64,000 bases of DNA from Myxococcaceae bacterium (GCA_016793095.1 JAEUJQ010000054.1:1-64000), one strand, 5' to 3'; shown: positions 10,703-17,503, counted from the first letter of the stretch. Made by a program: numbers and translations. The notes: generated by a model not told the origin, from the sequence alone.

Positions 10703-12274
10703 ATGAGATCCGTCACCCTCGCCGTCGTGTCGCTGTCCGTCCTCGTCGCCTGGCCGGCCGCGGCCTTCTGTGGCTTCTACGTGTCGGGCGGCGGCGCCGA
10801 GCTGTTCAACAACGCCACCCAGGTGGCCCTCATGCGCAGCGGCACCCGCACGGTGCTGTCGATGCAGAACGACTACCAGGGGCCGCCCGAAGACTTCGCC
10901 ATGGTGATCCCGGTGCCCGTGGTGCTCAAGAAGGAGCAGGTGAAGACGCTCAAGAAGGCGATCTTCAGCAAGCTCGACACGCTCTCGGCGCCGCGGCTGG
11001 TGGAGTACTGGGAGCAGGACCCCTGCCCGAAGCCGCTGGCCGATGGGTACGGGTACGGCCTCGGCGGCGTGGGGACGCTCGGGGGCGGGCGGGGCTACGG
11101 CTCCATCAGCCTGGGCGGTGTCGGCCGCTCGACGGTGCGGGTCGAGGCCGAGTTCGACGTCGGCGAGTACGAGGTTGTGATCCTCTCGGCCGAAGACGCG
11201 CTCGGCCTCGAGCAGTGGCTCACCGAGAAGAGCTACAAGATCCCCCAGGGCGCCGCGCCGCTCTTCCGCCCCTACATCCAGCAGGGCATGAAGTTCTTCG
11301 TCGCGAAGGTGAACGTGAAGAAGGTCACCTTCGACAAGGCGGGCCACGCGGCGCTGTCTCCGCTGCGCTTCCACTACGACTCCGAGAAGTTCGAGCTGCC
11401 GGTGCGCCTGGGCCTCATCAACGCGAAGGACACGCAGGATCTGATCGTGCACGTGCTGGCGCGCGGGCAGCGCTACGAGGTGGCGAACGCGCCGAACGTC
11501 ACCATCCCCACCAACATCGATCTCGTGCCCAGCGCGAAGAACGAGTTCGGCCCGTTCTACGCGTCGCTCTTCGATCGCACCCAGGCGAAGGAGAAGGGCA
11601 GCGTGGTGACCGAGTACGCCTGGGACGCGATGAGCTGCGACCCGTGCCCGACGCCGCCGCTCAACGACGCCGAGCTGACCGAGCTGGGCCTCGACGTGAT
11701 CGATCCGTCCGAGGAGTACGTCGAGCCCGAGCTCGAGGTGAAGAACGCGGACAAGCTGGCGCCGCAGCAGAAGCAGCAGCTCGACGTGCTCCTCACCAAC
11801 GCGAAGCGGCAGCTCAAGCTGCAGCACGATCGGCGCCGGCGGGGCAGCGGCTTCGTGGTGACGCGCCTGCACGCCCGGTACACGAAGGCGTCGCTGGGCG
11901 AGGATCTCGTCTTCCGCGCGGCGCCGCCCATCCAGGGTGGCCGCGAGTTCATGAAGGACGAGAGTGGCCTCGAGCGCGGCGCCACGCCCGGCCCCATGAA
12001 CAACTTCCAGGCGCGCTACGCGGTGCGCTACCCATGGACGGGCCCGGTCGCCTGCAAGAACCCGCAGTGGGGCGTCTGGGGCGGCAAGCCCGGCAAGGAC
12101 GAGGAGTACTCCGTCGGCGGGCGCGCGGCCGGCTCGGCCCTCAACACCGCCTTCGTCAAGCGCGACAAGCCCATCGAGAAGCTGATCGAGAGCCCCATCG
12201 CCGAGCTGGAGCTCAAGGCGAAGAAGGCCGGCGCCGGGCTGTCGAGCCGGGCGAAGAAGGTGGCGCTCCCCTGA
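10703..12274 (+). CDS. DUF2330 protein, copy 1
   Basis: A 523-residue secreted protein of the DUF2330 family, whose function is unknown. A signal peptide ends at AAA-FCGFYV. The hallmark block follows: CGFYV, GGGAELFNNATQV, RTVLSMQN and EDFAMVIPVPVVL. After the conserved VEYWEQDPC there is a variable segment, here Gly/Tyr-rich (GYGYGLGG), then a long region highly conserved with the next two genes (GEYEVVILSAEDALGLEQWL, FRPYIQQGMKFFVAKV, FGPFYASLFD). The start ATG is preceded by GGAG. It is the first of three tandem paralogues and carries a C-terminal tail with Lys/Glu-rich segments. Confidence 0.85.
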   Translation: MRSVTLAVVSLSVLVAWPAAAFCGFYVSGGGAELFNNATQVALMRSGTRTVLSMQNDYQGPPEDFAMVIPVPVVLKKEQVKTLKKAIFSKLDTLSAPRLVEYWEQDPCPKPLADGYGYGLGGVGTLGGGRGYGSISLGGVGRSTVRVEAEFDVGEYEVVILSAEDALGLEQWLTEKSYKIPQGAAPLFRPYIQQGMKFFVAKVNVKKVTFDKAGHAALSPLRFHYDSEKFELPVRLGLINAKDTQDLIVHVLARGQRYEVANAPNVTIPTNIDLVPSAKNEFGPFYASLFDRTQAKEKGSVVTEYAWDAMSCDPCPTPPLNDAELTELGLDVIDPSEEYVEPELEVKNADKLAPQQKQQLDVLLTNAKRQLKLQHDRRRRGSGFVVTRLHARYTKASLGEDLVFRAAPPIQGGREFMKDESGLERGATPGPMNNFQARYAVRYPWTGPVACKNPQWGVWGGKPGKDEEYSVGGRAAGSALNTAFVKRDKPIEKLIESPIAELELKAKKAGAGLSSRAKKVALP

Positions 12275-12360
12275 CGAAGGAACCCTGGCAGCAGCTCGAA
12301 CGTCTCACCGCGCGTCGCGGGAGCCGCTACAGTCCGCGCCGCACACCCAAGGGGGTTCCC

Positions 12361-13893
12361 ATGCGTCTCGCCGTCGCCTCGCTCATCACCGTCGCCCTGG
12401 GGGCCTCGACCCCTGCGCACGCCTTCTGCGGCTTCTACGTGGCCGGCGGCGGGGCCGAGCTGTTCAACAACGCCACGCAGGTCGTGCTCATGCGCAACGG
12501 CACCCGCACGGTGTTGTCGATGCAGAACAACTACCAGGGGCCGCCTGAAGACTTCGCGATGGTGATCCCGGTGCCGGTGGTGCTCCAGAAGGAGAACGTC
12601 AAGACGCTCGCCCGCAACGTCTTCGACAAGATCGACAAGCTCTCGGCCCCGCGCCTCGTGGAGTACTGGGAGCAGGACCCCTGCTACCAGCCCGACTACG
12701 AGAAGGCGAAGAAGAGCGAAGCGAAGATGGCGCCGCGGAGCATGGCCGCTCCAGCGCCCTCGGGCAGGATGGACTACGACGATCGCGTCACCATCGAGGC
12801 GCAGTTCGACGTGGGCGAGTACGAGATCGTGATCCTCTCGGCAGAGGACGCGATGGGGCTCGAGCGCTGGCTCGGCAAGAACGGCTACAACATTCCCAAA
12901 GGCGCTGAGCCGCTGTTCCGCCCCTACATCCAGCAGGGCATGAAGTTCTTCGTCGCCCGCGTGAACTCGAAGAAGGTGACGTTCGCCAACGGCATGGCGA
13001 CGCTGTCGCCGCTGCGCTTCCACTACGACACCGAGAAGTTCGAGCTGCCGGTGCGCCTGGGGCTCATCAACGCGAAGGAGAAGCAGGATCTGATCGTGCA
13101 CGTGCTCGCGCGGGGGCAGCGCTACGAGGTGGCCAACTTCCCGAACGTCACCATCCCCACCAACATCGATCTCGTGCCCTCGACGAAGAGCGAGTTCGGG
13201 CCGTTCTACGCGTCGCTCTTCGACAAGACGCAGGCGAAGGGGAAGGGCGCGGTGGTGACGGAGTACGCGTGGGACGCCAACACGTGTGATCCCTGCCCGA
13301 CGCCGGCGCTGTCGATGAGCGATCTCACCGCCTTCGGCCTCGACGTGATCGACGGCGCGACCGCGGCCGCGGTGACGCCGAGCATCGAGGTGAAGAACCT
13401 GTCGGAGCTGCCGCAGCAGGAGCAGCAGTACGTCTCTCAGGCCGTCAACAACATCACCCAGCAGAGCCTCATGCGGCAGATGCGCAACGTGAACTGGCGC
13501 GGCTTCGTGGTGACGCGCCTGCACGCCCGCTACGACAAGAAGTCGCTCGGCGAAGATCTCGTCTTCCGGGCGGCGCCGCCCATCGCCGGAGGCCGCGAGT
13601 TCCTCACCGACGGCGTCAAGCTCGAGCAGGGCGCCGTGCCGTACGGCACCAACAACTTCCAGGGCCGCTACGCCATCCGCTACCCGTGGACGGGCGAGAT
13701 CGCCTGCGCGAACCCGGTGCGCGGCCGCTGGGGCGGGAACCCGAACGGGGGCCGTGGTCGCCCCGAGCCGCTGCAGAACGCCGCCTTCGCCCCGCGCGGG
13801 AAGGAGCTGAGCAGCTTCGTCGAGAGCCCCGTCGCCGAGCTGGGCGTCAAGGGCAAGAAGACGGTCGCGGGCGTGCCGGTCAACGTGAAGTGA
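12361..13893 (+). CDS. DUF2330 protein, copy 2
   Basis: A 510-residue paralogue of its neighbours, with a signal peptide cleaved at AHA-FCGFYV and the same block order throughout. The variable segment after VEYWEQDPC is Lys/Met/Pro-rich (about residues 105-140) and unlike that of copy 1. Conserved cysteines include the one in CGFYV, the one after WEQDP, the TCDPCP pair and a late one (EIACANP), which could form disulfides in the periplasm. It starts 86 bp after copy 1 and ends 11 bp before copy 3. Family function is unknown; periplasmic or outer-surface location is inferred from the signal peptide. Confidence 0.85.
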   Translation: MRLAVASLITVALGASTPAHAFCGFYVAGGGAELFNNATQVVLMRNGTRTVLSMQNNYQGPPEDFAMVIPVPVVLQKENVKTLARNVFDKIDKLSAPRLVEYWEQDPCYQPDYEKAKKSEAKMAPRSMAAPAPSGRMDYDDRVTIEAQFDVGEYEIVILSAEDAMGLERWLGKNGYNIPKGAEPLFRPYIQQGMKFFVARVNSKKVTFANGMATLSPLRFHYDTEKFELPVRLGLINAKEKQDLIVHVLARGQRYEVANFPNVTIPTNIDLVPSTKSEFGPFYASLFDKTQAKGKGAVVTEYAWDANTCDPCPTPALSMSDLTAFGLDVIDGATAAAVTPSIEVKNLSELPQQEQQYVSQAVNNITQQSLMRQMRNVNWRGFVVTRLHARYDKKSLGEDLVFRAAPPIAGGREFLTDGVKLEQGAVPYGTNNFQGRYAIRYPWTGEIACANPVRGRWGGNPNGGRGRPEPLQNAAFAPRGKELSSFVESPVAELGVKGKKTVAGVPVNVK

Positions 13894-13904
13894 GGAGAGA
13901 CTCC

Positions 13905-15425
13905 ATGAGACTTCTGTTCGCAGCCGCGGCGGTGCTGGCCTCGACGACGGCCTCGGCCTTCTGTGGCTTCTACGTGGCGGGCGGCGGCGCCGAGCTCTTC
14001 AACAACGCCACCCAGGTGGTGCTCATGCGCAGCGGCACCCGCACGGTGTTGTCGATGCAGAACAACTACCAGGGCCCCGCCGAAGACTTCGCCATGGTGG
14101 TGCCGGTGCCGGTGGTGCTGCAGAAAGAGAACGTGAAGACGCTCAACAAGGCGATCTTCGACAAGGTGGACAAGCTGTCGGCGCCGCGGCTCGTCGAGTA
14201 CTGGGAGCAGGACCCCTGCTACGTGCCGCCCGAGCCGAGGTACGACCGCCGCAGGGTCAAGAGCATGGCGAGGCCGATGGCCGAGCTCGAAGACGCCATG
14301 CCCGCCGAGCGTGACTACGGCGTGAAGATCGAGGCGAAGTTCGAGGTGGGCGAGTACGAGATCGTGATCCTCTCGGCGAAGGACGCGCTGGGCCTCGATC
14401 GCTACCTGCGCGACTCGAAGTACAAGATCCCCCAGGGCGCCGAGCCGTTGTTCCGCCCGTACATTCAGCAGGGCATGAAGTTCTTCGTGGCGAAGGTGAA
14501 CGTGAAGAAGGTCACCTTCGTCGACGGGCAGGCGAAGCTGTCGCCGCTGCGCTTCCACTACGACTCCGAGAGGTTCGAGCTGCCCGTGCGCCTCGGCCTC
14601 ATCAACGCGAAGGACAAGCAGGATCTGATCGTGCACATCCTCGCGCGCAACCAGCGCTTCGAGTCGGCCAACTACCCGAACGTCACCATCCCGACGAACA
14701 TCGATCTCGTGCCGAGCACGAAGAGCGAGTTCGGCCCGTTCTACGCGTCGCTCTTCGACAAGACGCTCGCGAAGGCGCCGAAGGCCGTCGTCACCGAGTA
14801 CTCGTGGGACTCGAGCACGTGTGATCCGTGCCCGATCCCCGCGCTCGACGAGACGGATCTCACGACGCTCGGGCTCGACGTGCTCGACTCGGGCAAGTTC
14901 GTGGCGCCGGAGATCGAGGTGAAGAACATGGACAAGCTCGATCCGCAGGATCAGCAGACGGTCACGTACTCCCTGAACCAGCTCCAGTCGCAGATCCGCC
15001 AGCGGCACAGCGGCGGGCAGGGCGCCTGGGGCTTCGTGCTGACGCGGCTCCATGCGCGCTACGACAAGAGCTCGCTCGGCGAAGATCTCGTGTTCAAGGC
15101 GGCGCCGGGCATCGCGGGCGGGCGCGAGTTCCTCACCAACGGCACCTCGCTCGAGCAGGGCGCGGTCGCGTCGGGCAACAACCAGTTCCAGGGCCGCTAC
15201 GCCATTCGCTACCCGTGGACCGGGCCCATCGCCTGCAAGAACCCGGTGCGCGGCCGATGGGGCGCCAACCCGAACGGCGGCCAGGCGCCTCCGCTCGCGG
15301 CCCAGGACACGGCCTTCGCCCCGCGCGGGAAGGATCTCGCCACCTTCGCCGAGAGCCCGGTGTCGGAGCTGGGTGTGAGCGGGAAGAAGCAGCGCGCTGG
15401 TCAGCCGGCGAACCTGAAGAACTGA
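13905..15425 (+). CDS. DUF2330 protein, copy 3
   Basis: A 506-residue third paralogue, with a signal peptide ending at ASA-FCGFYV. GAGGAGA lies seven to eight bases before the ATG, overlapping the stop of copy 2, so translation is probably coupled. It has the same conserved blocks and cysteines as copies 1 and 2; the variable segment after VEYWEQDPC is Arg/Met/Glu-rich. Copies 2 and 3 resemble each other more than copy 1, including the LQKENVKTL and TDLTTLGLDV-like blocks. The stop lies only 5 bp before the cytochrome c gene, tying the two together in one operon. Confidence 0.85.
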   Translation: MRLLFAAAAVLASTTASAFCGFYVAGGGAELFNNATQVVLMRSGTRTVLSMQNNYQGPAEDFAMVVPVPVVLQKENVKTLNKAIFDKVDKLSAPRLVEYWEQDPCYVPPEPRYDRRRVKSMARPMAELEDAMPAERDYGVKIEAKFEVGEYEIVILSAKDALGLDRYLRDSKYKIPQGAEPLFRPYIQQGMKFFVAKVNVKKVTFVDGQAKLSPLRFHYDSERFELPVRLGLINAKDKQDLIVHILARNQRFESANYPNVTIPTNIDLVPSTKSEFGPFYASLFDKTLAKAPKAVVTEYSWDSSTCDPCPIPALDETDLTTLGLDVLDSGKFVAPEIEVKNMDKLDPQDQQTVTYSLNQLQSQIRQRHSGGQGAWGFVLTRLHARYDKSSLGEDLVFKAAPGIAGGREFLTNGTSLEQGAVASGNNQFQGRYAIRYPWTGPIACKNPVRGRWGANPNGGQAPPLAAQDTAFAPRGKDLATFAESPVSELGVSGKKQRAGQPANLKN

Positions 15426-15430
15426 GCGCC

Positions 15431-17503
15431 ATGATCCTGTCCCTCGTCGCCACGCTCCTCGCCGTCGAGCCGGTGCTCCCGGTCGATCAGTCGCCGTGGG
15501 CGCCAGGGCTGCTCTCGCAGGACGAGCGCGGGAAGCTGCCGTCTGCCAGCCTCGATGACGTGAAGGTCTGCGGGAGCTGTCACATGGACGTGGCGGCCCA
15601 GTGGCGCACCAGCGCGCACGCGCTCGCGTCCTTCACCAACCCCCTGTACCGCGTGTCCATCGAGCGGCTGCGGAAGGACCGGGGCTTCAAGGAGAGCCGC
15701 ATGTGCGGCGCGTGCCACGATCTCGCGCTGCTCACCTCGGGCGGCCTCGATCAACCCGTCGCGCCCGGCGATCCCCGCGCGCACGCCGGCGTGAGCTGTA
15801 CGAGCTGCCACAGCGCGGTGCACGCGACCCTCGACGGCAACGGCAGCCTCACGCTGCGCTCCGACGACGCCCTGCCCGAGCGGGTCGAGGACGCCACCGT
15901 CGAGAACCACAAGCAGCGCGTGGCCAACGCGCCCCTGCGCACCGCCGAGCTCTGCGGCGGCTGTCACCGCGCGTTCCTCTCGCAGGCGACCGGCAACGGC
16001 TCTGCGTTCTTCGGCATGGACGACTTCGGCGCCTGGCAGAGGTCAGCCTTCAACCACTCGCGCGCCGATCGACCCGATGACGTCAAGGCCCGGGACTGTC
16101 GCGGCTGCCACATGCCGAAGGAGCCCGCCGTGCTGGGCGACGTGGCGGCGAAGAAGGGGCAGATCGTCTCGCACCGCTTCCTGGGCTCGCACACGTCGTT
16201 GGCGGTGATGCGGGGTGACGACGAGACGAGGAAGCGCGTGGAGGACTTCCTCAGGGGCTCGGTGACGGTTGACCTCGCCGCGGCGCGCGTCGGTGGAGGG
16301 CCGTGGCTGCCCACGGCGTCGCACGCTTCGGTGAAGGGTGGCGACTCGCTGGAGATCGACGTGGTGGTCTTCAACGAGAAGGTGGGCCACCGGTTCCCCG
16401 GCAGCGTGCTGGACAACCAGGGCACCACCGTCGAGGTCGAGCTGCGGACGAGTGAGGGGCGGGTGCTGGCGCGCTCGACCGATCACCAGCTGCGCGCAGA
16501 GATCGTCGACCTCGAGGGCGAGCCGCTGCACGAGCGCGAGACGCACCGCTTCGTGGCGCCCGTCTGGAACCACACGGTCCCTGCCCGAGATGCCCGGGCA
16601 GCCCGCATCGCCTTCGAGATCCCGCCTGGGCTTCAGCCGCGTGACTTCCCGCTGTCGGTGCACGCAGCCGTCGTCCACCGCACGCGCCTGCCCGAGCTGC
16701 ACACGCTGGCCTGTCAGGACGCCCGGACGCCGAACGGCGCGGCCTTCCTCGCGGCCGGCGAGCAGCTCACCGGTCACCGCATCGATCCGTGCGCCGAGGT
16801 GCCGAGCACGGTGATCTCCAGCGCCGTCGCGACGCTGCGTGGGCAGGGCAAGCCCACCTTCGACTCTGTCTGGCGTCGTGCGCTCGCCTTGTCGGTGTCG
16901 CTGCAGGAGTACCTCGGCGAAGCGGAGCAGGCGTTCCGGTTCGCGCGCGACGCCGCGAAGACGCGAGACGAGCGGGGCAGGGCGGCGTGGGGGCTCGCGG
17001 TGATCGCCGGGAAGCGCGGCCAGACCGACGAGGCGCTCCGGCTGCTGGCCTCGGCCGAGCAGCTGCTCGGGGAGCTGCCGTCGACGTGGCGGACCCGCGG
17101 CGACATCTACGCGCAGGTGTGGCGCTGGCCGCTCGCCGCCGAGGCCTACCGCCGCGCCGCCCAGCTCGCCCCCCAGGACGTCTCCGTCTGGCAGATGCTC
17201 GCCATGAGCGAGGCCAGCGCCGGTCGCTTCCCCCAGGCCCTCGAGGCCGCCCAGGCAGGCATCCGGCTGTACCCGCGCGACGCCGACTGCCTGCGCGTGC
17301 AGGCCCTCGCCCTGGCCCAGCTGGGCGCCCCGGAGCTCGTCCGCGAGAAGTCCCTCGCCGCCGCCCTCGAGTGGCGCCTGCCCGACGACGGGCCCGCCGC
17401 GAAGGGGAAGTGCAGCAAGCGCATCGTCGGCTGCGCCGAACGCCGCAACCCCGTGCCCCGCTTCACTGCCCTTCCGACCGGGCCCCTCGCCGCCACTCCC
17501 TGA
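15431..17503 (+). CDS. Pentaheme cytochrome c with C-terminal TPR region
   Basis: A 690-residue protein with an N-terminal hydrophobic leader (weak signal peptide) and five CxxCH heme-attachment motifs: CGSCH 47-51, CGACH 92-96, CTSCH 123-127, CGGCH 175-179 and CRGCH 223-227. The arrangement resembles cytochrome c554-type multiheme proteins. After the hemes is a beta-rich domain with the signature GHRFPGSVLDN, then from about residue 470 a TPR region (REALRLL/AWGLAVIAGKRG and YRRAAQLAPQD-like helices). Multiheme cytochromes move electrons in the periplasm or outer membrane; a TPR part suggests binding to a partner. It is 5 bp downstream of the third DUF2330 gene. Confidence 0.85.
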   Translation: MILSLVATLLAVEPVLPVDQSPWAPGLLSQDERGKLPSASLDDVKVCGSCHMDVAAQWRTSAHALASFTNPLYRVSIERLRKDRGFKESRMCGACHDLALLTSGGLDQPVAPGDPRAHAGVSCTSCHSAVHATLDGNGSLTLRSDDALPERVEDATVENHKQRVANAPLRTAELCGGCHRAFLSQATGNGSAFFGMDDFGAWQRSAFNHSRADRPDDVKARDCRGCHMPKEPAVLGDVAAKKGQIVSHRFLGSHTSLAVMRGDDETRKRVEDFLRGSVTVDLAAARVGGGPWLPTASHASVKGGDSLEIDVVVFNEKVGHRFPGSVLDNQGTTVEVELRTSEGRVLARSTDHQLRAEIVDLEGEPLHERETHRFVAPVWNHTVPARDARAARIAFEIPPGLQPRDFPLSVHAAVVHRTRLPELHTLACQDARTPNGAAFLAAGEQLTGHRIDPCAEVPSTVISSAVATLRGQGKPTFDSVWRRALALSVSLQEYLGEAEQAFRFARDAAKTRDERGRAAWGLAVIAGKRGQTDEALRLLASAEQLLGELPSTWRTRGDIYAQVWRWPLAAEAYRRAAQLAPQDVSVWQMLAMSEASAGRFPQALEAAQAGIRLYPRDADCLRVQALALAQLGAPELVREKSLAAALEWRLPDDGPAAKGKCSKRIVGCAERRNPVPRFTALPTGPLAATP

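Follow-up and report, generated by a model that had tools for sequence, protein, structure and literature searches.

Three genes for secreted proteins of DUF2330 (PF10092), a Pfam family without assigned function, precede the gene for a five-heme cytochrome in the genome of a Myxococcaceae bacterium. Do these genes belong together, and what might the DUF2330 proteins do beside a cytochrome? The window that we analysed is a stretch of 64,000 nt from contig C92 of this 8.8-Mb genome. In the reading that we prefer, and to which we give roughly an even chance, the locus encodes a Myxococcota cell-envelope electron-transfer module made up of a pentaheme cytochrome-TPR protein and one to several secreted DUF2330 proteins.

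Gene organization of the locus

Four ORFs on the + strand, placed as in the preliminary description, confirm its account of three secreted DUF2330 paralogues and a pentaheme cytochrome-TPR protein, as do the Pfam matches and five CxxCH motifs. D1 (10703..12274) encodes 523 aa and D2 (12361..13893) 510 aa; D2 ends 11 bp before D3 (13905..15425; 506 aa), which ends 5 bp before the 690-aa cytochrome, CYT (15431..17503), the same 5-bp gap as had been reported. The genes had also been assigned to a single operon. For D2, D3 and CYT this is supported by their close packing; for D1, the 86-bp gap that separates it from D2 (12275..12360) and a promoter-like element there make a transcript shared with D2 less certain. 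Within the gap, a block shows partial conservation among genomes of the same genus and contains a TACAGT/TATGGT element that could be an internal promoter. A simple scan of the gap found no consensus promoter and no + strand terminator, other promoter types lying outside that scan.

We read the locus in five further genomes from the genus (G001 and G003-G006), calling neighbour genes outside the window by codon usage or, on low-GC contigs, as longest ORFs; many of the relatives are MAGs with broken arrays. In these five genomes the module is followed by thiolase and CoA-transferase genes and preceded, where the contig extends so far, by rpsA and a CehA-like gene. The cytochrome of G003 is divided between two contigs. 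No D1 was seen beside D2 in G001 and G004, and in G004 D2 follows immediately on the CehA-like gene, which shows that D1 is absent rather than cut off. Beyond these genomes, three DUF2330 genes and a cytochrome cut off by the contig end are present in G007, G043 has at least five tandem DUF2330 genes on one contig and another DUF2330 gene with a cytochrome on a second, and the module is present in G182 and G183. On the tree D1, D2 and D3 each pair with their own counterpart in a related genome (L161, which is G003), and thus the copies have stayed separate from one another. Compared with their G006 orthologues the DUF2330 proteins are 83-86% identical and the cytochrome 74%; to judge from these values the DUF2330 proteins are better conserved between species than the cytochrome, as expected of constrained parts and not of passengers.

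The cytochrome

CYT contains exactly five CxxCH motifs, all on the + strand: CGSCH (15569..15583, aa 47), CGACH (15704..15718, aa 92), CTSCH (15797..15811, aa 123), CGGCH (15953..15967, aa 175) and CRGCH (16097..16111, aa 223). They are followed by a beta-rich middle part (16265..16834, aa 279-468) and a helical TPR part towards the C-terminus (16859..17371, aa 477-647). Five such motifs in a predicted exported protein point to a c-type multiheme cytochrome, and aa 46-128 match Cytochrome_C554 (PF13435) with 33.2 bits against a cut-off of 20.8. The genome has a single copy of CYT and, CYT included, six Cytochrome_C554 matches. Across 25-26 aligned cytochromes all heme-motif residues are invariant, as are His63, His160 and His248 and, in the middle part, His320 and His352; His254 is 92% conserved. 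Read by eye rather than with a predictor, the N-terminus of the window protein is a short, plain hydrophobic start, and that of the cytochrome in several other families is lipoprotein-like. The AlphaFold2 model has pLDDT under 50 in the heme part, is therefore unreliable there, and was set aside as a guide to heme packing. A sequence search for solved relatives gave TPR proteins only, among the matches listed (at least 60).

The Cytochrome_C554 superfamily has enzymatic relatives, and CYT might itself catalyse a reaction, such as the reduction of a nitrogen, sulfur or peroxide compound, with the DUF2330 proteins binding or delivering a substrate or partner and electron carriage being secondary. 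Apart from the less conserved His254, the only conserved non-motif histidines of the N-terminal part are His63, His160 and His248 for five hemes, so one heme may be without a distal histidine and could be a catalytic site; on the other hand, His320 or His352 could act as ligands from the middle part. None of the NCBIfam enzyme models scored above its cut-off, which led us to reject CYT as NrfB (TIGR03146, 16.0 bits against 166.6) and as CycA (18 against 400). We regard the enzyme as an unlikely alternative to the electron-transfer module.

CYT was likewise rejected as an NrfA nitrite reductase (Cytochrom_C552, PF02335, 9.4 bits against 24.1) and as a member of the OmcA/MtrC decaheme family (TIGR03507, 16.1 bits against 209.3). 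It shares the C554 domain and c-type heme motifs with the cytochrome c554 family and NrfB, but differs in that its five hemes are followed by the beta-rich part and TPR, in scoring far below the NrfB and CycA cut-offs, and in having DUF2330 rather than Nrf genes as neighbours. Like the outer-membrane cytochromes MtrC and OmcA it is multiheme and exported, with the lipoprotein-like N-terminus in other lineages; unlike them it has five hemes and not ten, and no conserved porin neighbour was seen.

The DUF2330 proteins

The three DUF2330 proteins match the Pfam family with E values of 4e-58 (D1), 2e-62 (D2) and 9e-60 (D3), and with 197, 211 and 203 bits they lie well above the curated gathering cut-off of 24.7. 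D2 and D3 are 70% identical, D1 and D3 62%. Each begins with a signal peptide ending AxA (AAA in D1) that is followed by FCGFYV, and each has the same five cysteines, at positions 23, 108, 312, 315 and 451 in D1, and no CxxCH. The conserved cysteines of the preliminary description were borne out: in alignments of 145-148 DUF2330 sequences all five (C20, C105, C306, C309 and C444), together with H383, are 99-100% conserved, and equally so in cytochrome-linked, RnfD-linked (see below) and single DUF2330 contexts.

One variable segment per protein had also been described, and we find it as a stretch of about 35 residues that follows the second cysteine. In D3 it spans approximately residues 106-139 (14220..14321, + strand), of which 109-135 have pLDDT under 50 in the AlphaFold2 model and are predicted to be disordered. 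The suggestion that these segments serve different partners fared less well, its sole support being the variability and this predicted disorder.

The D3 model (pLDDT 82.9, pTM 0.82) is mostly beta. A sequence search for solved relatives of DUF2330 found none up to E = 10, and the fold matches were weak: P35 (Z 10.2, rmsd 4.6 over 216 residues) and the beta domains of M1 aminopeptidases and ribophorin I (Z ~6), with a best Foldseek match at E 3e-3 and none under 1e-3. We take these likenesses as a sign of common beta architecture, not of function. No whole-protein match appears among the matches listed, which also counts against an enzyme served by DUF2330 proteins.

Could the DUF2330 proteins themselves be redox- or metal-active? 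Their five invariant cysteines, among them a CDPC that is a CxPC-type motif, might form a metal site or a switchable disulfide, reduced or oxidised by the cytochrome or by an RnfD-like protein. The conservation of the cysteines and H383 in all three contexts fits this, as does the CxPC-type motif. Cysteine pairs of secreted proteins are usually structural, however, and a thioredoxin fold is absent among the D3 fold matches listed, which is weak evidence against it. We think such activity rather improbable. Within the preferred module, the DUF2330 proteins may serve as passive scaffolding, bind a substrate or take part in redox chemistry by way of their cysteines.

Distribution of the DUF2330-cytochrome pairing

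The preliminary description had proposed asking whether DUF2330 genes co-occur with multiheme cytochromes in other genomes. A scan of GTDB genomes with a DUF2330 alignment gave 80 loci, most of them from Myxococcota. At 21 of the 80, DUF2330 is immediately followed by a cytochrome homologue on its own strand; 20 of these cytochromes have five CxxCH motifs, and the remaining one is cut at a contig end. No CYT was detected at the other 59 loci, 13 of which end at a contig edge (two of the 13 show the start of a CYT). Among loci with readable downstream sequence, CYT stands at the end of 17 of 18 tandem DUF2330 arrays versus 4 of 48 single genes, a contrast with a Fisher p of 4e-11 when relatedness is ignored; in a relatedness-corrected test, which is not significant, there are only 5 supported independent pairs, of which about 3-4 agree and none disagree. 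Both families have a clustered distribution on the tree. Outside the 80-locus survey, G096 has three tandem DUF2330 genes without a cytochrome.

In the reverse direction, a profile of the cytochrome run against the phylum set of 195 genomes detected it in 16, and DUF2330 is directly upstream of it in 13 of these, counting G003 with its split cytochrome and G002, which was placed by coordinates. The three without an adjacent DUF2330 gene are G010, G100 and G096, the match in G096 being distant. The survey and the relatives overlap (L161-L164 and L203 seem to correspond to G003, G004, G007, G183 and G043), which leaves about 30 distinct genomes with the order DUF2330(n)-CYT on one strand, among them the cultured strains Plesiocystis pacifica and Enhygromyxa salina. 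In Plesiocystis, Enhygromyxa, Sandaracinaceae and other MAGs the module lies at other loci. Recurrence in so many genomes and at different chromosomal loci rules out a chance neighbourhood. Copies of DUF2330 per module range from one to at least four where CYT is on the same contig, and up to seven stand in arrays cut by contig ends, so three accessory proteins, as first described, are not a fixed number. No third conserved gene was found across the lineages compared.

The association is one-sided. It is strong from the cytochrome side, and most DUF2330 copies stand alone, which rules out that they are accompanied by cytochromes as a rule. The domain thus cannot depend on a cytochrome neighbour. 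It had been suggested that DUF2330 genes found mainly without cytochromes would speak against the module, and taken literally they are so found, with three of about 12 linked in the own genome and 59 of 80 survey loci without CYT; what holds is the pairing in 13 of 16 cytochrome-bearing genomes and in 17 of 18 readable tandem arrays. The own-genome number is approximate because contigs C52, C64, C86 and C87 end inside copies; C86 and C87 have an identical end, and the assembly breaks at DUF2330 repeats. None of the 9 or so other copies directly adjoins a multiheme cytochrome gene; closest comes an ORF with eight CxxCH motifs, located on C53 at a distance of six genes upstream.

In a family with this many paralogues, the cytochrome could also be no more than an operon companion of some of them under common regulation, with no physical or functional interaction. 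The copies elsewhere in the genome, and the lack of adjacency in G010 and G100, agree with this. What makes us doubt it strongly is that the same order is kept at several different loci, that start and stop codons overlap between DUF2330 copies and before CYT in several genomes, that no third neighbour is common to the lineages, and that the pairing persists with cytochromes down to 28% identity. In this last case, G115, two overlapping DUF2330 genes are followed, after a gap of 1 bp, by a pentaheme cytochrome that is 28% identical to CYT over 681 aa.

Other arrangements of DUF2330 genes were seen in the survey. At L187:7361-16967 there are four DUF2330 genes, three of them in tandem; the set of three and the fourth gene are each followed by a protein of ~540 aa in place of a cytochrome, a possible third DUF2330 context. 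At ten loci (L212, L213, L217, L218, L221, L223, L225, L227, L230 and L233) DUF2330 lies between FKBP-like and EttA-like ABC-F genes, named by eye, an arrangement conserved in about ten MAGs.

A sister clade beside RnfD-like proteins

A sister clade of DUF2330 proteins (99% support in a quick tree) has a different neighbour. Directly upstream of DUF2330 in all ten sampled members (10/10) is a membrane protein of the NQR2/RnfD family, and in G026 and G011 an RnfD-like membrane part and DUF2330 are fused into single proteins (L081:8175-10352 and L088:7453-9663). G115 has both contexts, cytochrome and RnfD-like. The [ST]GA[ST] flavinylation motif is absent from the RnfD-like proteins of the sister-clade loci, and hence their redox activity is itself presumed; RnfD-like subunits without a covalent flavin site, with an NqrC/RnfG-like partner, have been described (PMC11334425).

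These loci resemble RnfD/NqrB complexes (PMC11334425, PMC8238504) in that a membrane redox protein is paired with an extracytosolic partner, whose place is taken by the sister-clade DUF2330, twice by gene fusion. They differ in the missing [ST]GA[ST] motif, and the window locus differs in having no RnfD/NqrB-type membrane subunit. The only PF03116 protein of the own genome is on a contig other than that of the window locus (C89:97826-100699, or L155:5827-8700); it is a fusion of an RnfD-like membrane domain with FG-GAP repeats and an UnbV/ASPIC domain. No paper with both UnbU and RnfD was found in the literature searched.

Both recurrent neighbours of these DUF2330 proteins thus belong to redox-protein families, which is our main reason for preferring a redox role.

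Discussion

The comparison supports a conserved two-family module of DUF2330 proteins and a cytochrome. To the extent that the preliminary description proposed an electron-transfer module with accessory proteins, the conserved module stands, and electron transfer within it is what we infer. Located in the periplasm or attached to a membrane, the cytochrome would conduct electrons along its chain of hemes; the DUF2330 proteins would form a complex with it as docking or terminal partners, their cysteines and their separate copies perhaps having roles of their own; and tandem duplication would yield several non-identical DUF2330 versions. A bolder form, which we offer as distinctly speculative, sees in DUF2330 a novel type of extracytoplasmic partner for electron transfer, a five-cysteine beta-fold that attaches to a pentaheme cytochrome or to an RnfD-like protein; the tandem DUF2330 duplicates of Myxococcota would then be interchangeable terminal modules of an undescribed envelope electron conduit.

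The claim that such a module would be undescribed agrees with the open literature searched, in which no paper names DUF2330 or COG4402, and the arrays with a cytochrome therefore appear to be new; nor did the titles and abstracts searched contain a description of the module. DUF2330 and the pentaheme cytochrome are a testable two-family module, and this partnership, with the RnfD-like fusions of the sister clade, may be the first concrete handle on the role of DUF2330.
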